Assembly (NCBI RefSeq): GCF_003351045.1
Contig: NZ_QQZY01000002.1
Coordinates: 186,001-250,000 of the forward strand
Source: Gaiella occulta
GTDB taxonomy: Bacteria > Actinomycetota > Thermoleophilia > Gaiellales > Gaiellaceae
DNA: 64,000 nucleotides
Direction of reading: 5' to 3'
In this document: positions 9,040-40,232 of the stretch, in pieces
Layout of the letters: each line of letters opens with the position of its first letter
Position numbering within the stretch: the stretch's first letter is position 1
The notes under the pieces: generated by a model
The model's input: the letters and a program-made list of their open reading frames with translations, nothing else
Told to the model about the DNA's origin: nothing
The model's database searches: none
Program-made: the position numbers and the translations under genes

Positions 9040-10323
9040 ATGGACGATCACCGTCTCACGACGCTGCCGGGAGGCGAGCGTGTCGTCAGCGAGCGTATCG
9101 ACGGCGTCCGCTCCGCGGCCCTCGGCCTCTTCATCGGCGCCGGCTCGCGCGACGAGCCCCCGGCGAAGGCCGGCGTCTCCCACTTCATCGAGCATCTCCT
9201 GTTCAAGGGCACGGCGCGCTACGACGCCGTCCAGATCGCGGAGCTGTTCGACGCGATGGGCGGAGAGCTCAACGCGGCCACCTCGCGCGAGACGACGGTC
9301 GTCTACACACGGGTGCCGGACGACCATGTCGACGTCGCGCTCGACGTGATGACGGACATGGTGTTCGCGCCGACGTTCGCCGATCTCGACTGCGAGCGCG
9401 AGGTCGTGCTCGAGGAGATCGCCATGGTCGAGGACAACCCGCAGGAGCTCGTCCACGACCTCGCCGCCGAGGCCGTGTTCGGCGGGCACCCGCTCGGACG
9501 GCCGGTGATCGGTCGCGCGGACGTGATCTCGACGGTCTCGAAGCGCTCGCTGCGCGCGTACCATCGTGCCGCGTACGTGGGTGCCAACGTCGTCCTCGCC
9601 GCGGCGGGCAACGTCGACCACGACCGTATCGGGGCGGCGCTGGCGGAGCGCGGCGGCGTGCCCGGCGCGACGCTCGGGCGCGTGCGCAAGCCCGCGCGCG
9701 CGGCGCCGCCCCCGACGCTGCGCTTCCGCCGCAAGAACACGGAGCAGTACCACGTCTGCCTCGCCGCCCCGGGGCTGCGGCGCGACGATCCCCGCCGCTA
9801 CGCGGCGGGACTGCTCGACGCGATCCTCGGAGGATCGGCCTCCTCGCGGCTGTTCCAGGAGATCCGGGAGAAGCGCGGCATGGCGTACTCGATCTACTCG
9901 TACGCGTCCCGGTACGTCGACACGGGCCAGGTGGGGATCTACGTCGGCACGCGCGAGGAGAACCTGAGAGCATGCCTCGAGGTGATCGCAGACGAGCTGC
10001 GGGACATCGGGGCGGGGAACATCCGGCCCGGCGAGCTCGAGCGCGCAAAGGAGAACATGAAGGGACGCATGCTGCTCTCGCTCGAGTCGACGTCGGCGCG
10101 CATGTCGCGCCTCGGCAAGGCCGTCGTGACCGGCACCGAGATCGTCTCGGTGGAGGAGAGCGAGCGACGCATCGACGCGGTCACCCCCGAGGACGTGGCG
10201 GCGCTCGCGCGCGACGTCTATGCGCCCGAACGCCTCTCGGCCGCGGGCATCGGCCCGAGCGCGAGGCGCTTCGAGGCCGCCGTCAAGCTGCTCAACCCGG
10301 CGGCTGCCGCCCGCGCCGCATGA
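9040..10323 (+). CDS. M16 family zinc peptidase (mitochondrial-processing-peptidase-like)
   Basis: A 427-residue one-chain M16B metallopeptidase. The inverted zinc motif HFIEH is at residues 48-52, with the distal glutamate in the EREVVLEEIAMVED segment near residues 120-130. The second M16 half carries the R/Y-type substrate residues in REKRGMAYSIYSY. Such genes (PepR/YmxG type) commonly follow pnp in actinobacteria and firmicutes. The start ATG 9040 is picked from the leaderless -10 (TACGAT) 7 bases upstream; the open frame extending back to about 7846 is read-through in pnp antiframe. It ends in an ATGA overlap with dapB. Confidence 0.93.
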   Translation: MDDHRLTTLPGGERVVSERIDGVRSAALGLFIGAGSRDEPPAKAGVSHFIEHLLFKGTARYDAVQIAELFDAMGGELNAATSRETTVVYTRVPDDHVDVALDVMTDMVFAPTFADLDCEREVVLEEIAMVEDNPQELVHDLAAEAVFGGHPLGRPVIGRADVISTVSKRSLRAYHRAAYVGANVVLAAAGNVDHDRIGAALAERGGVPGATLGRVRKPARAAPPPTLRFRRKNTEQYHVCLAAPGLRRDDPRRYAAGLLDAILGGSASSRLFQEIREKRGMAYSIYSYASRYVDTGQVGIYVGTREENLRACLEVIADELRDIGAGNIRPGELERAKENMKGRMLLSLESTSARMSRLGKAVVTGTEIVSVEESERRIDAVTPEDVAALARDVYAPERLSAAGIGPSARRFEAAVKLLNPAAAARAA

Positions 10324-10958
10324 ACGTGCTGCTGTTCGGGCGCGACGGCAAGGTGGGCTCCGTGCTGATGGAGGCGCTGCGCCGCGCCGGCCACGCCGTG
10401 ACGGGCGTCGAGGCCGGCGACGCCGTCGACCCGGGCGGGCACGACGCCGCCGTCGACTTCACCGCGCCCGCGGCGGTGCTCGCGAACGCGACGCTGGCGC
10501 TCACGGCCGGCGTGCCCTGCGTGATCGGCACCACGGGCCTCGGCGACGACGGCCTCGCCGAGCTCGACGCGCTCGCGCGCTCGCGGGCCACGGCGTGCTT
10601 CATCGCACCGAACTTCGCGCTCGGGGCGGTGCTGATGATGCGCTTCGCCGCCGAGGCGGCCCGCTCGTTCCCGCGTGCCGAGATCGTCGAGCTGCACGCG
10701 GATACCAAGCTCGACGCGCCCTCGGGAACGGCGAAGGCCACCGCCGCGAAGATGGGCGGCAGCGTCCCGATCCACTCGGTGCGGCTGCCGGGCCTCGTCG
10801 CCCACCAGGAGGTGATCCTCGGCGGGCCGGGGGAGATCCTCACGATCCGGCACGACACGACCTCTCGCGAGGCATTCGCGCCGGGCGTGCTGCTCGCGCT
10901 CGAGCGCGTGCGCGGCCTGCCCCCCGGCGTGACCGTCGGCCTCGAGTCCCTTCTCTGA
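10320..10958 (+). CDS. dapB: 4-hydroxy-tetrahydrodipicolinate reductase, short form
   Basis: A 212-residue DapB, which reduces hydroxytetrahydrodipicolinate with NAD(P)H in lysine/DAP synthesis. Motifs: nucleotide-binding GRDGKVG (8-14), IGTTG, APNFALGA and the catalytic ELHADTKLDAPSGTA (about 123-137). The catalytic His and the Lys of the HxxxK pair are kept, but the second His of the usual HH is Ala. It is shorter than the typical 245-270 residues because the segment after the dinucleotide-binding loop is condensed, as in other compact DapBs. ATGA overlap with the M16 gene indicates coupling; dapA follows 113 bases later. Confidence 0.93.
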   Translation: MNVLLFGRDGKVGSVLMEALRRAGHAVTGVEAGDAVDPGGHDAAVDFTAPAAVLANATLALTAGVPCVIGTTGLGDDGLAELDALARSRATACFIAPNFALGAVLMMRFAAEAARSFPRAEIVELHADTKLDAPSGTAKATAAKMGGSVPIHSVRLPGLVAHQEVILGGPGEILTIRHDTTSREAFAPGVLLALERVRGLPPGVTVGLESLL

Positions 10959-11071: not shown

Positions 11072-11953
11072 GTGCTGGGCGAAGTCCTGACCGCCGTCGT
11101 CACGCCCTTCGCGGCAGACGGCTCCGTCGACCTCGGCCGCTTCCGCGCGCTGCTACGCCATCTCGTCGCGAACGGCTCCGACGGCGTCGTCGTCACCGGC
11201 ACCACGGGCGAGAGCCCGACGCTCGCCGACGGCGAGCGCTTCGCGCTGTACGAGGCCGCCGTCGACGAGCTCGGCGGCGCCCACACCGTGATCGCGGGCA
11301 CGGGCACCTATGCGACGGCCCACTCGGTGCACCTCACCGAGCGGGCGCACGCGATCGGCGTCGACGGCTTCCTCGTCGTCACGCCCTACTACAACAAGCC
11401 GCCCCAGCGGGGCATCGTCGCGCACGTCGAGGCGATCGCTGCCGTCAGCGACCGGCCGGTCGTCTTCTACGACATCCCGAGTCGCGTCGTCGTCGACGCC
11501 GAGCCGGCCACGATCGAGGCGCTCGCGGGCATCGAGAACGTGCGCGCGGTGAAGCAGGCGAAGCCGTCGCTCGCGGCCGCGCGCGCCGTCGTCGCGTGCG
11601 GCCTCGATCTGTACGCCGGCGACGACGATCTCCTCCTCCCGTTCCTCGAGGTCGGGGGCGTCGGCGGCATCTGCGTGCACACCCACGTCGTCGGACCGCG
11701 GGTGCAGGAGATGGTGCGCCGCTTCCGCGACGGCGACCGCGACGGCGCCCGCGCGCTCGACGAGGAGCTGCGTCCCGCGATCGAGCTGCTGCGCGTGCAG
11801 ACGAACCCGATCGCGATCAAGTGCGCCCTCAACCTGCTCGGCCACGAGGTCGGCGGCCTGCGCCTACCGCTCGTGGAGGCGACGCCGGAGGAGGAGGACG
11901 CCGTGCGCGGCTGCCTCGAGCGCCTCGGGCTGCTGCAGCGCGCCGCCGCCTGA
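11072..11953 (+). CDS. dapA: 4-hydroxy-tetrahydrodipicolinate synthase
   Basis: A 293-residue class I aldolase-type DapA that condenses pyruvate with aspartate semialdehyde. Key residues lie at canonical positions: TGTTGESPTL near 43-52, Tyr133 in VVFYDIPSR and Schiff-base Lys161 in RAVKQAKPS. The GTG start at 11072 is supported by a TACAAT -10 at 11060-11065, six bases upstream, so the message should be leaderless. It has its own promoter although dapB is just upstream. The longer open frame in this region overlaps dapB and is not real. Confidence 0.96.
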   Translation: MLGEVLTAVVTPFAADGSVDLGRFRALLRHLVANGSDGVVVTGTTGESPTLADGERFALYEAAVDELGGAHTVIAGTGTYATAHSVHLTERAHAIGVDGFLVVTPYYNKPPQRGIVAHVEAIAAVSDRPVVFYDIPSRVVVDAEPATIEALAGIENVRAVKQAKPSLAAARAVVACGLDLYAGDDDLLLPFLEVGGVGGICVHTHVVGPRVQEMVRRFRDGDRDGARALDEELRPAIELLRVQTNPIAIKCALNLLGHEVGGLRLPLVEATPEEEDAVRGCLERLGLLQRAAA

Positions 11954-34219: not shown

Positions 34220-35542
34220 ATGCGCCGCTACCACGTCACCACCTTCGGCTGCCAGATGAACAGCCACGACTCCGAGCGCATCAAGGGCATGCTGGAATCG
34301 CTCGGCCTGGGTGAGGCTGCCGCGCCGGACGAGGCCGACATCGTCGTCTTCAACACGTGCACGATCAGGGAGAAGCCGGACACGAAGCTGGCCGCCTACC
34401 TCGGGGACGCCGGCGCGCGCAAGCGCGAGAACCCGGAGCTCGTGATCGCGGTGGGCGGGTGCTACGCCGAGGCCCAGCGGGAGCGCATCTTCGACCTGTA
34501 CCCGCAGGTCGACGTCGCCTTCGGCCCCGGCTCGATCCCGCACCTGGCCGAGTGGGTGGGCGCCGGCGGCGTGGGCGTGGAGCGCGGCCGCTTCGGGACG
34601 CACGAGCATTTCGCCGGCGACCTCCCGCAGCGGCGGGAGCGCCGCGTCCACGCCTGGGTGCAGGTATCGATGGGATGCAACTCGACGTGCTCGTACTGCA
34701 TCGTTCCCGCGGTGCGCGGGCGCGAGCAGAGCCGGCGGGCCGGCGACATCGTCGCCGAGGTTGCGCGGCTGGCTGCCGACGGGGTGCGCGAGATCACGCT
34801 CCTCGGCCAGAACGTCAACTCGTGGGGACGCGATCTGCCGCCCGGGCTGCGCACGGAGTTCGGCGAGCTGCTGCGCGCCTGCGACGCGGTCGACGGCATC
34901 GCGCGGATCCGCTTCACGAGTCCCCACCCGAAGGACTTCCGCGCGCCGGTGATCGCGGCGATCGCCGAGTGCGACGCCGTCTGCGAGCACATCCACCTGC
35001 CGCTGCAGTCGGGCTCCAGCCGCATCCTCAAGGCGATGCGCCGAACCTACTCGCGCGAGCGCTACCTCCAGCTCGTCGAGCGGCTGCGTGCCGCGATCCC
35101 CGATCTCGCGCTCGGCACGGACATCATCGTCGGCTTCCCCGGCGAGAGCGAGGACGACTTCCGGCAGACGCTCGAGGTCGTCGAGGCCGTCCGCTACGAC
35201 AGCGCGTTCACGTTCATCTACTCGCCGCGGCAGGGCACGGACGCGGCGGCGATGGCCGACCAGGTCCCCGATCCCGTCAAGCACGAGCGCCTCGAGCGCC
35301 TCGTCGAGGTGGTGCAGCGCATCGCCCGTGAGCGCAACGCCGAGCGTGTCGGCCGCGTCGAGCAGGTGCTCGTCGAGGGTCCGAGCCGGACCGACGCGTC
35401 GCTGCTGCGGGGACGCACGCGACGCAACACGACCGTGAACTTCAGCGGCGGCGCGCAGATCGGCGAGCTGGTGGACGTCCTCGTCGACGGCGCGACGTCG
35501 ACGACGCTACGCGGGCGCATCGCCACCGCAGTCCCCGCCTGA
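34220..35542 (+). CDS. miaB: tRNA-2-methylthio-N6-dimethylallyladenosine synthase
   Basis: A 440-residue radical-SAM methylthiotransferase modifying A37 of tRNAs. The N-terminal UPF0004 domain has three cluster cysteines (FGCQMN, NTCTIRE, VGGCYAE). The radical SAM core has CNSTCSYC (Cys153, 157, 160). The C-terminal TRAM domain covers about 375-435. TACAAT at 34204-34209 lies 10 bases before ATG 34220, giving a leader of only a few bases. Works together with MiaA, encoded next. Confidence 0.97.
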   Translation: MRRYHVTTFGCQMNSHDSERIKGMLESLGLGEAAAPDEADIVVFNTCTIREKPDTKLAAYLGDAGARKRENPELVIAVGGCYAEAQRERIFDLYPQVDVAFGPGSIPHLAEWVGAGGVGVERGRFGTHEHFAGDLPQRRERRVHAWVQVSMGCNSTCSYCIVPAVRGREQSRRAGDIVAEVARLAADGVREITLLGQNVNSWGRDLPPGLRTEFGELLRACDAVDGIARIRFTSPHPKDFRAPVIAAIAECDAVCEHIHLPLQSGSSRILKAMRRTYSRERYLQLVERLRAAIPDLALGTDIIVGFPGESEDDFRQTLEVVEAVRYDSAFTFIYSPRQGTDAAAMADQVPDPVKHERLERLVEVVQRIARERNAERVGRVEQVLVEGPSRTDASLLRGRTRRNTTVNFSGGAQIGELVDVLVDGATSTTLRGRIATAVPA

Positions 35543-35553
35543 CCGGGCCCCGG

Positions 35554-36432
35554 ATGGTCGCCGTCGTCGCCGTGTTCGGCCCGACCGCCTCGGGCAAGTC
35601 GGCCGTCGCCGAGGCGCTCGCCGCCCGTCTTCGCACCGGCGTCGTGTCGTGCGACGCGCTGCAGGTCTACCGCGGGCTTCCGCTCCTGACCAACCAGCCC
35701 TCGAGCCCCACGGCGCTCGTCGGCATCAGGGAGACGAACGAGGAGATGTCCGTGGCTGCGTTCGCCGCCCTTGCACACGCCGCCGTCGACGACCTCGTCG
35801 CGCGGACGGGCCATGCCGTCGTCGCGGGCGGGACGGGCCTCTACCTGCGCGCGGCGCTCGCGGACCTCGCCGTGCCGCCGCGGCCCGCCGACGCGACCCG
35901 CGAGCGCATCCGCCGTGAGGTCGAGAGCGATCCCGGGGCGGCGCACGCACGACTCCGGGTCGCCGACCCGGCCGCCGCGGCGACCGTGCACCCGAACGAC
36001 CTCCGGCGCGTCGCGCGCGCGCTCGAGCTCGCCGAGAGCGGCGCTTCGCTCGTGCCGGCCGACGACCGCCTGTGGAGCGCGGCCACGCGCCATGAGACGT
36101 TGATCGTCGGCCTCGAGGTGCCCCGCGACGAGCTCGAGCACCGCATCGTCGAGCGCACCGACGCGATGTTCCGCGCCGGCGTCGTCGACGAGGTGAGGCG
36201 CGCTCTCGCCGCCGGCGTCTCGCGCACCGCGGAGAAGGCGCTCGGCCTGCGCGAGATCGCGACGCTTCCCGAGGTGCAGGCCCGCGAGCGCATCGTCGTG
36301 CGCACACGCAGGTACGCCGCCTACCAGCGCAAGTGGATGCGGAGGATCCCCGGCCTCGTTAGCGTTGACGCGACCCGCTCGCCGGAGGAGGTGGTGGATG
36401 CGATTCTCGAAATGGCACGCGCTCGGCAATAG
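35554..36432 (+). CDS. miaA: tRNA dimethylallyltransferase
   Basis: A 292-residue MiaA that adds a dimethylallyl group to A37, the substrate of MiaB. P-loop GPTASGKSAVAEAL (residues 9-22), VVSCDALQVYRGL, AGGTGLYLRAAL and the tRNA-binding RRYAAYQRKWMRRI block are present. Compared with E. coli a few loop residues are missing in the insertion domain. The 3' end overlaps dapF by 35 bases, and the dapF ribosome site lies within it. Confidence 0.97.
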   Translation: MVAVVAVFGPTASGKSAVAEALAARLRTGVVSCDALQVYRGLPLLTNQPSSPTALVGIRETNEEMSVAAFAALAHAAVDDLVARTGHAVVAGGTGLYLRAALADLAVPPRPADATRERIRREVESDPGAAHARLRVADPAAAATVHPNDLRRVARALELAESGASLVPADDRLWSAATRHETLIVGLEVPRDELEHRIVERTDAMFRAGVVDEVRRALAAGVSRTAEKALGLREIATLPEVQARERIVVRTRRYAAYQRKWMRRIPGLVSVDATRSPEEVVDAILEMARARQ

Positions 36433-37162
36433 CTACATCGTCGTCGAGCAGCCGGACGCAGGCACGATGACGCCCGAGCGCGTCCGCCGGCTGTGCGCCC
36501 CGACCACGGGGATCGGCTCCGACGGCGTGCTCGAGGTGCTCGCGCGCGAGGGCGGTCGCGCCGAGATCGTGATCTGGAATCCGGACGGCTCGATCGCGGA
36601 GATGTCCGGCAACGGCGTTCGCATCGCCGCCTGCTGGCTTGCCGCGGAGGCACGGCGGCGCGAGGTCGTGATCGTCACGGCGGGCCGCGAGCTGGCGGCG
36701 CGCATGCTCGACGGCCTCGAGGCGGAGACCGACGTCGGCCCCGTCACGGTCGGCGTTCCCGAGATGCTCGACGTGGGGGAGGCGCTGGAGTTCACGGCAG
36801 CTTCCGTCGGCAACCCGCACGCGGTCATCCGCCTCGAGGCGCCGACCCGTGGCGACCTGCTGCGCCTGGGACCGCTCGTCGAGTCGCATCCGCGCTTTCC
36901 CGAGCGCACGAACGTGCAGCTCGTCCGCGTCGACGGCCGCCACGACGTGACCGTGCTCGTGTGGGAGCGCGGCGCGGGAGAGACGAGCGCCTCGGGATCG
37001 TCGTCGGTCGCGGCCGCGGCCGTCGCCGTCGCGCGGGGCTGGTGCGAGAGCCCGGTGACGGTGCACCTACCCGGCGGCGACCTGCACGTGCGGCTCGCCG
37101 GCGGCAGCGCCTCGCTCGTCGGTCCCGCCGAGGAGGTCGCGCGCGGCTCGACGTCGCTGTAG
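36398..37162 (+). CDS. dapF: DapF-family epimerase lacking both catalytic cysteines
   Basis: A 254-residue protein with full DapF architecture: FSKWHALGNSYIVVE, TGIGSDGVL, WNPDGSIAEMSGNGVR, SVGNPHAVI, FPERTNVQLV, WERGAGETSASGSSS and LPGGDLHV. In E. coli DapF the two acid/base cysteines are Cys73 (QCGNG) and Cys217 (ETQACGSG). Here both positions are serine: Ser70 in MSGNG and Ser199 in SASGSS. The fold and substrate contacts look intact, so this is either a serine-based, slow or altered-specificity enzyme, or non-catalytic. GGAGGAGGTGG just before ATG 36398 is a strong ribosome site. It is convergent with dapD. Confidence 0.85.
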   Translation: MRFSKWHALGNSYIVVEQPDAGTMTPERVRRLCAPTTGIGSDGVLEVLAREGGRAEIVIWNPDGSIAEMSGNGVRIAACWLAAEARRREVVIVTAGRELAARMLDGLEAETDVGPVTVGVPEMLDVGEALEFTAASVGNPHAVIRLEAPTRGDLLRLGPLVESHPRFPERTNVQLVRVDGRHDVTVLVWERGAGETSASGSSSVAAAAVAVARGWCESPVTVHLPGGDLHVRLAGGSASLVGPAEEVARGSTSL

Positions 37163-37209: not shown

Positions 37210-38003
<794 letters not shown>

Positions 38004-38007
<4 letters not shown>

Positions 38008-39155
38008 GCGAACACATCATCCAGGATCTCGACGGCGCGCGCGCACTCGTCCTCGGTGGGCACGAGCGCGAAGCGGACGTATCCCTCACCCGACGGGCCG
38101 AGGAACGACCCGGGGGCGACGAGGACGCCGTGCGCGAGCAGGGTCGTCGCGAACTCCTGCGACGTCTCCCCATGCGGCACGGCGACCCACAGGTACATCG
38201 TCGAAGGGCCACCGGCGTCGCGGAGCCCGACGCGGCGAAACAGCTCGAGGAACAGCGCGCGCTTACGGGCGTACGCCGCGCGCGCCTGCTCCACGTGCTC
38301 CTCGTCGCCCCACGCGACCACCGACGCGCGCTGCACGAACTCCTGCGGCGCGGTGCCGACGTTGGGCCGGAACTGCCTCAGAGCGGCGACGAGCTCGGGA
38401 TCGCCGGCGACGAAGCCGGATCGATAGCCGGTCATGGACGAGCGCTTCGACAGCGTGTTGAAGGAGACGACGTTGCTCCAGTCGGCCAGCTGCAGCGCGG
38501 ACACCGGCGGCTCCTCGAACCACAGCTCGCTGTACGCCTCGTCGCAGGCGAGCACGAACCCGTAGGCGCGGGCAAGATCGGCGAGCCGTGCGTAGAAGGC
38601 GAGTGGAGCCGTGGCGCCCGTCGGGTTGTTCGGGTAGTTGACCCACACGAGCGCCGTGCGCCGCCACGTCTCGGCGGGAACGGCGTCCACGTCCGGGAGG
38701 AAGCCGCCCGCCTCGAGGAGCGGGAGCTCGACGACACGGGCGCCCGCGAACTCGGCGCCGCGCCCCGGCACCGGGTAGCCGGGCTCCGTGACGACCACGG
38801 TGTCGCGTCCGCCCGCGACGTCGAGGACGACCTGGGCGAACGAGAAGATCGCCTCCTTCGAGCCGAGGGTCGGGATCACCTGGCGGTCCGGATCGAGGGC
38901 GACGCCGAAGCGGCGTCCCGCCCACGAGGCGATCGCCTCGCGCAGCTCGGGCAGCCCGGCGGCGGCGGGGTAGCCCATGCGCCGGCGCACGCCGTCGCGG
39001 AGCGCCCGCATGATGCGCGGGTCGGTCGGCTCGCGCGGGTCGCCCATGCCGAAGTCGAGCACCTCGAGGCCGCGCTCCCGGCGCTCGGCGGCCGCCTGGT
39101 TGAGACGCACGAACGGATACGTCGCCTGCGCGCGCAGGATGGGGGAGATGCCCAT
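38004..39155 (-). CDS. dapC: Succinyldiaminopimelate transaminase (DapC-like)
   Basis: A 383-residue class I/II PLP aminotransferase. The Schiff-base Lys is in NTLSKRSSMTGYRSGF (about residue 236); VNYPNNPTGA, CDEAYSELWF and the C-terminal Arg (GYVRFALVP) are typical. Flanked by dapD and dapE, it is best assigned to the DapC step. The start is supported by TAGCTT, six bases before ATG 39155. The first three bases of that hexamer are the stop codon of dapE, so initiation can occur exactly at the gene border. Confidence 0.9.
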
Positions 39156-39164
39156 GCCGGGAAG

Positions 39165-40232
39165 CTACCCCGTGATGAAGCGACGGAGGATCTCGTAGGA
39201 GCGCGCGAGCGCCGCGATCTCCACGAGCTCGTCGCGGCGGTGCGCGTAGCGCGTCGACCCGGGGCCGAAGTTGACGGCGTCGAGGCCGCGGGCCGTGAAG
39301 TCGGCGACGTTCGTCCACGCCTGCTTCGGCGCGAACATGAGATCGCCGGCGTCGCGCAGCGCACGCACGGCGGGCGCGTCCGTGACCACCGCCGCAGGCG
39401 GGGAATCGCCCGTGATCTCGAGCGCCGCACCCGCAGGCGTGAGCGCGCGCAGGTACTCCGCGGCGCTCTGCGGCGAGCGGTCCGGGGCATAGCGGTAGTT
39501 GAGCGTCGCAGTGGCCCTGTCGGGGACGACGTTGTCGGCGATGCCGGCCTCGAGCCTCGTGATCGTGACCACCTCGTAAAACGGAAGCCCGCCGACGACG
39601 GCCTCACGGCGCTCGAGGCGCGCGATCGGCGTCAGGCCGTCGATCGCCTTCGCGATCGCGTTCTCGGCCGTCCAGGGGCGTGCAGAGTGGCCGCTGACGC
39701 CCGTGAACGTGAGCCGGGCGCTCATGTTGCCGAGGCAGCCCGCCTGGATCGTCAGGTCGGTCGGCTCGAGCAGGACGGCGAGCTCGGCCTCGTGGACGAG
39801 CCGCGAGCGCTCGAACAGGTCGGGAAGCGGGCTGTGCTGGGCCGGCAGCTCCTCCTTGCCGAACAGCAGCAGCCCCACGTCGTAGCGGCCCGGCGTCTCC
39901 TGCGCGAGGTCGCGGACGAGCTCGAGCGCGACCGCGACCCCGCCCTTCATGTCGGTCGCGCCGGCGCCGTGCACGGCGCCGCCCTCGATCCGGCCGGGAA
40001 GGTTGCCCTGCGCGGGCACGGTGTCGTAGTGGCCGACGAGGAGGACGAGCCCCACGCCGGGCCTGCGTGGCCGCGCGAACAGGAAGGCGTCCTCACCCGC
40101 ATACTCGATCGCGAACGGCGGCGGCACGAGCCCGAGCAGGTGCTCGCGGATCGCGGCTTCGTGCAGGCTCTCCGACGGGATGTCGACGAGCTCGAGCGTG
40201 CGTGCGGCGAGCCTGTCCGCGAGAGGTGCCAT
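39165..40232 (-). CDS. dapE: Succinyl-diaminopimelate desuccinylase
   Basis: A 355-residue M20 metallopeptidase. Zinc ligands and catalytic residues: VGHYDTVPAQ (about 66-75), GATDMKGGVA (about 91-100), FGKEELPA with the two catalytic glutamates (about 125) and the late His in a RYAHRRDE segment. It uses the actinobacterial DapE layout with a short dimerisation domain. TACGCT at 40239-40244 (minus strand), six bases before the ATG, is its leaderless -10, nearly touching the divergent hflX promoter. Confidence 0.92.
   Translation of the reverse strand: MAPLADRLAARTLELVDIPSESLHEAAIREHLLGLVPPPFAIEYAGEDAFLFARPRRPGVGLVLLVGHYDTVPAQGNLPGRIEGGAVHGAGATDMKGGVAVALELVRDLAQETPGRYDVGLLLFGKEELPAQHSPLPDLFERSRLVHEAELAVLLEPTDLTIQAGCLGNMSARLTFTGVSGHSARPWTAENAIAKAIDGLTPIARLERREAVVGGLPFYEVVTITRLEAGIADNVVPDRATATLNYRYAPDRSPQSAAEYLRALTPAGAALEITGDSPPAAVVTDAPAVRALRDAGDLMFAPKQAWTNVADFTARGLDAVNFGPGSTRYAHRRDELVEIAALARSYEILRRFITG

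Follow-up and report, generated by a model that had tools for sequence, protein, structure and literature searches.

Can a diaminopimelate epimerase (DapF) operate when neither of its two catalytic cysteines is present? Bacteria require this enzyme to build their cell wall and to make lysine, and it is usually essential; it also serves as the textbook case of a stereocenter inverted without a cofactor, by means of a thiol/thiolate pair. The question is raised by a dapF gene (36398..37162, + strand; 254 amino acids) carried by a 64,000-nucleotide stretch of the Gaiella occulta genome, which is called the window here. A first-pass annotation had proposed that serine occupies both catalytic positions of the encoded protein, and that either serine can serve, another protein makes meso-diaminopimelate (meso-DAP), or the cell wall and lysine pathway are unusual. 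Comparative evidence favors the first of these explanations: the Ser/Ser protein probably is the organism's working LL-DAP/meso-DAP epimerase, with serine hydroxyls replacing the thiol/thiolate pair. The protein otherwise looks like an ordinary DapF, and no report of a natural Ser/Ser form was found in the open-access literature that was searched, subscription papers being outside its scope.

The protein is matched by the DapF equivalog model TIGR00652 with 185 bits (cut-off 114.65) and by PF01678 (DAP_epimerase) with 144 bits (cut-off 34.7). Pfam assigns PF01678 alone, and not the proline racemase family (PF05544). In an alignment of 185 sequences, the columns of the E. coli catalytic residues Cys73 and Cys217 hold Ser70 (codon TCC, 36605..36607, + strand) and Ser199 (codon TCG, 36992..36994, + strand), within the motifs AEMSGNGVR and GETSASGSS. 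The C73/C217 pair that characterizes DapF is thus absent, as the first-pass annotation had read from the codons. The three cysteines of the protein are residues 33, 79, and 216, and none adjoins either catalytic motif, which excludes a simple displacement of the catalytic cysteines. The PROSITE signature N-x-[DN]-[GS]-[SENGFT]-x(4)-C-[GI]-N-[GA]-x-R, as quoted in PMC8225329, does not match, and by eye NPDGSIAEMSGNGVR agrees with it except for serine in place of cysteine. Also, all six residues whose contact with DAP is known from the Anabaena DapF structure (PMC12039745) are present (N11, N64, N157, N190, E208, and R209 in E. coli numbering), and the earlier observation that substrate motifs are kept around the serines therefore holds.

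An AlphaFold2 model of the protein, computed with a 70-sequence alignment (predicted local distance difference test score, pLDDT, 97; predicted template modeling score, pTM, 0.93), has the two-domain DapF fold. Its top structural match is 9mro, a DapF with bound inhibitor (Z 35.3, root-mean-square deviation 2.1 over 253 residues). In the model, Ser70 lies directly before helix 71-85 and Ser199 directly before helix 200-212, and the location of catalytic cysteines at helix N-termini is the arrangement described for DapF (PMC12039745). The closed active site would accordingly be expected to hold the reacting alpha-carbon of DAP between the two serines, each at a helix N-terminus, and the usual two-base mechanism might then proceed with oxygen in place of sulfur.

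The sample consists of 185 distinct DapF sequences, including that of E. coli. Nearly all are from Actinomycetota, chiefly from the phylum and class to which the window belongs, and the counts do not show how frequent each form is among bacteria in general. By residue at site 1/site 2, there are 89 Ser/Ser, 71 Cys/Cys, 13 Cys/Ser, and 12 Ser/Cys forms. Alignment across the class shows that the Ser/Ser form is constant family by family. All DapF sequences sampled from the window's family have it (35 sequences, plus 16 metagenome-assembled genomes with close relatives), as do all those from five other families of the class (f3, f8, f10, f11, and f12), a pattern that rules out sequencing error at the two codons. 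Chance or error is also an inadequate explanation because the same pair recurs in 89 nonidentical sequences that come from many separate assemblies. Families f2, f4, f5, f6, f7, and f9 of the class are Cys/Cys, the single exception being an extra Ser/Ser copy in one genome of f6 (G050). In the wider phylum sample, the Ser/Cys form is constant within families f27, f33, f34, f42, and f48, and the Cys/Ser form within f23, f36, f44, and f50. Further Ser/Ser proteins occur in f46, in f49, and in two Victivallales (Lentisphaerota) genomes.

Several additional observations concern this distribution. The extra Ser/Ser copy in G050 (L132, G050:C119:389-1204), a genome that also carries a Cys/Cys DapF, groups with the Victivallales proteins, which suggests transfer or contamination. 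A subgroup of the window's family (L026-L032, L058, L059, and L122-L128) has a short DapF of about 222-232 amino acids that is still Ser/Ser. A plasmid search gave no match above about 36% identity.

The Ser/Ser proteins have a median pairwise identity of 42% and share only 28 invariant columns, both serines among them. N11, N157, N190, E208, and R209 are likewise invariant across these proteins, and N64 has one exception. Other pocket residues differ between the forms. At position 192 (E. coli numbering), 67 of the 71 Cys/Cys proteins and all 25 mixed ones have glutamate. Just 6 of the 89 Ser/Ser proteins do; the others have glutamine (54 sequences, with His159) or serine (29 sequences, with Gln159). 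This trait follows few lineages and amounts to a small number of events rather than 83. Two Ser/Ser subtypes can thus be distinguished by the 159/192 pair, in which His/Glu has become either His/Gln or Gln/Ser, with Gln159 marking the Solirubrobacterales-type forms. The window's protein has Gln174 at the position of Glu192, which is usual in the Cys forms of Actinomycetota. Such changes around these two positions, seen in most Ser/Ser lineages, may represent a re-tuning of the pocket. The mixed Ser/Cys and Cys/Ser forms retain both His159 and Glu192 in all 25 cases, and at least one serine therefore seems able to substitute without rewiring of the pocket.

A maximum-likelihood tree built without the two trait columns requires at least eight changes at site 1 and at least seven at site 2. 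An analysis of correlated change between the two sites yielded only a small number of independent pairs. The window's family groups with the Cys/Cys family f5 (support 96/87), apart from the Solirubrobacterales-type Ser/Ser forms. In the approximately unbiased (AU) test, a single clade of all Ser/Ser forms is rejected (p 0.0005), which rules out the spread of one ancient Ser/Ser paralog, whereas the data are compatible with a single clade when only the class's Ser/Ser forms are considered (p 0.37). Family f10 uses serine codons of both types, TCN and AGY, at each of the two sites, but this mixture alone is no proof of selection on serine because a TCC-TGC-AGC path through cysteine is possible.

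The genomic position of the gene is informative as well. Upstream in the window lie miaB (34220..35542, + strand; TIGR01574, 463 bits) and miaA (35554..36432, + strand; TIGR00174, 153 bits), the end of which is overlapped by the start of dapF by 35 bp. The order miaB-miaA-dapF is common to Cys and Ser forms in most genomes inspected, including those of the Cys/Cys sister family f5. Because it occupies the same slot as the Cys form, the Ser form is an ortholog rather than an added paralog, and the window's protein is a direct ortholog of Cys/Cys DapF.

The remainder of the pathway is ordinary. As had been claimed, the window also encodes dapA (11081..11953, + strand, start approximate; TIGR00674, 263 bits), dapB (10320..10958, + strand, start inferred; TIGR00036, 146 bits), the tetrahydrodipicolinate N-succinyltransferase dapD (37210..38007, - strand; NF008808, 322 bits), a dapC-like succinyl-DAP aminotransferase (38004..39155, - strand), and the succinyl-DAP desuccinylase dapE (39165..40232, - strand; TIGR01900, 324 bits). 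The best match of the dapC-like gene is TIGR03537, with 408 bits, below the cut-off of 454. The genome, which is 97.9% complete, was searched for a second, Cys-containing DapF and holds one DapF only; the gene is single-copy in near-complete genomes. LysA is present above cut-off, and MurE carries DNPR, the motif typical of enzymes that add meso-DAP. A second MurE-like stretch (G000:C6:154341-155497), split over different frames, is perhaps a decayed or frameshifted paralog. No DAP dehydrogenase is found in this genome, nor above cut-off in any of 29 other genomes with a Ser-containing DapF, and a bypass through this enzyme is thereby ruled out; LysA is matched in 27 of those 29 genomes, in 26 of them above cut-off. 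The glutamate racemase MurI of the window's genome retains both catalytic cysteines. The Cys-to-Ser change is therefore specific to DapF in this organism, and a general loss of thiol racemases is ruled out. Four genomes of the class that are 96-97% complete (G016, G028, G064, and G089) have no DapF match.

An indication of function comes from a cultured relative. In G198, taken as Conexibacter woesei ID131577T, the sole DapF match (L176) is Ser/Ser, LysA is present, and neither a DAP dehydrogenase above cut-off nor a proline-racemase-family protein is found. The peptidoglycan of this strain is of type A1gamma with meso-DAP, which has been called diagnostic for the whole order (PMC3035278), and a desert Solirubrobacter has also been reported with meso-DAP (PMC10722151); the Solirubrobacterales are Ser/Ser in the sample. 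Because a Ser/Ser relative is known to contain meso-DAP, the serines can probably do the job. The single DapF, the absence of DAP dehydrogenase, the ordinary pathway, and the meso-DAP of C. woesei together support the proposal that serine can serve.

Racemases of glutamate show some peculiarities in these organisms. The second catalytic cysteine of MurI is replaced by serine (LGSTHYPL) in C. woesei (L249, G198:C1:1963047-1963796) and in G017 (L248, G017:C1:4409901-4410656), both of which are Solirubrobacterales-type genomes with Ser/Ser DapF, and the other MurI proteins checked retain cysteine. Three Ser/Ser genomes (G103, G130, and G139) have no glutamate racemase match, and their D-glutamate probably comes from another route.

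A more specific version of the favored reading is that these proteins constitute a naturally thiol-free, cofactor-free epimerase in which the serine pair moves an alpha-proton with a pKa of about 29, and which arose repeatedly from Cys/Cys ancestors, partly via mixed forms, with the MurI change in Solirubrobacterales as a parallel. The chances that this fuller account is correct appear evenly balanced. There is precedent for its chemistry, since a natural 4-hydroxyproline epimerase of the same fold uses Ser93 with Cys236 (PMC4113996) and an Asp/Glu racemase functions with a Cys/Thr pair (PMC8142540). Several considerations weigh against catalysis by a serine pair. The pKa of serine is far above that of cysteine. 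The Ser/Ser forms as a whole share no newly acquired acidic or basic side chain that might activate the serines. Furthermore, an engineered single Cys-to-Ser change leaves PddB with <0.1% of its activity (PMC8225329) and greatly reduces that of HisR (PMC11602996). Finally, the record of meso-DAP covers C. woesei and its order, not the window's family.

These difficulties give some substance to other explanations. A non-homologous enzyme might make meso-DAP, leaving the Ser/Ser protein with a binding, regulatory, or different catalytic role. The near inactivity of the engineered mutants, the near-complete genomes of the class that lack any DapF, and the presence in the window's genome of a proline-racemase-family protein with an intact cysteine pair are all compatible with such a replacement. 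But no shared candidate is apparent: DAP dehydrogenase is absent throughout, and seven Ser/Ser genomes, G198 among them, lack the proline-racemase-family protein, so that it is ruled out as a general substitute for DapF. Invariant serines and kept DAP contacts would be unexpected in a protein freed from DAP epimerization, and the swap would have been needed separately in several lineages. Thus, the suggestion that another protein makes meso-DAP has been weakened, in the absence of a second DapF or a DAP dehydrogenase, and must be regarded as unlikely. Alternatively, the protein might be a DAP epimerase in which bound water, a His141/Glu190 network, or groups of the substrate carry out proton transfer, the serines serving only to position them. 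The poor basicity expected of serine speaks for this arrangement, as does the reworked pocket, with Glu192 changed to Gln or Ser in most Ser/Ser forms and His159 to Gln in those of Solirubrobacterales type. Yet the alignment reveals no replacement general base that every Ser/Ser form shares, 29 of these forms lack His159, and the mixed forms keep an ordinary pocket; there seems to be rather little chance that this alternative is right.

It is highly improbable that meso-DAP is simply not needed, with LL-DAP or another diamino acid in the wall and lysine made otherwise. The available wall data do come from lineages other than the window's own, but the DNPR motif of MurE, LysA above cut-off, and the meso-DAP walls of the Ser/Ser Solirubrobacterales all speak for a requirement, and the ordinary dapA-E set likewise disfavors the earlier suggestion of an unusual wall or lysine pathway. 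Sequencing or assembly error, or misaligned catalytic cysteines, has practically no probability and is already refuted by the identical pair in so many sequences with no cysteine near either motif.

The Ser/Ser protein resembles Cys/Cys DapF (TIGR00652; E. coli, H. influenzae, Anabaena, and C. glutamicum) in fold, length, substrate contacts, operon slot, and pathway context, and differs from it by serine for both catalytic cysteines and Gln174 for Glu192. The 4-hydroxyproline epimerase B9JQV3 (Ser/Cys) and the t3-hydroxyproline dehydratase B9K4G4 (Ser/Thr) share the fold and a natural serine for a catalytic cysteine (PMC4113996), but they belong to another family with other substrates; B9JQV3 keeps one cysteine, and the cysteine-free B9K4G4 catalyzes a dehydration rather than a two-base epimerization. 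PhzF, CntK, and HisR, the latter two being histidine racemases, also have the same fold (Z 24-26) with at most 18% identity, but PhzF catalyzes a different isomerization and CntK and HisR retain both cysteines. The H. influenzae variants C73S (2q9h) and C217S (2q9j) each have one of the two catalytic sites changed to serine. These are single laboratory mutants made for crystallography, and titled as engineered, whereas both serines of the window's protein are natural and conserved; no natural-serine DapF was present among the Protein Data Bank alignments inspected.

Work on DapF as a target for antibacterials uses inhibitors that form bonds with the catalytic cysteines. If the favored reading is true, Ser/Ser forms should resist such inhibitors and also oxidation. 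By contrast, C. glutamicum DapF is turned off when its two catalytic cysteines form a disulfide (PMC5296763). Freedom from shut-off by a disulfide between the catalytic thiols is a possible benefit of the Ser/Ser pair. The natural forms offer a ready series for separating the share of the rate due to sulfur from that due to the closed pocket and helix dipoles. Overall, if Ser/Ser, Ser/Cys, and Cys/Ser enzymes all work in nature, then the thiol pair would be no chemical necessity.
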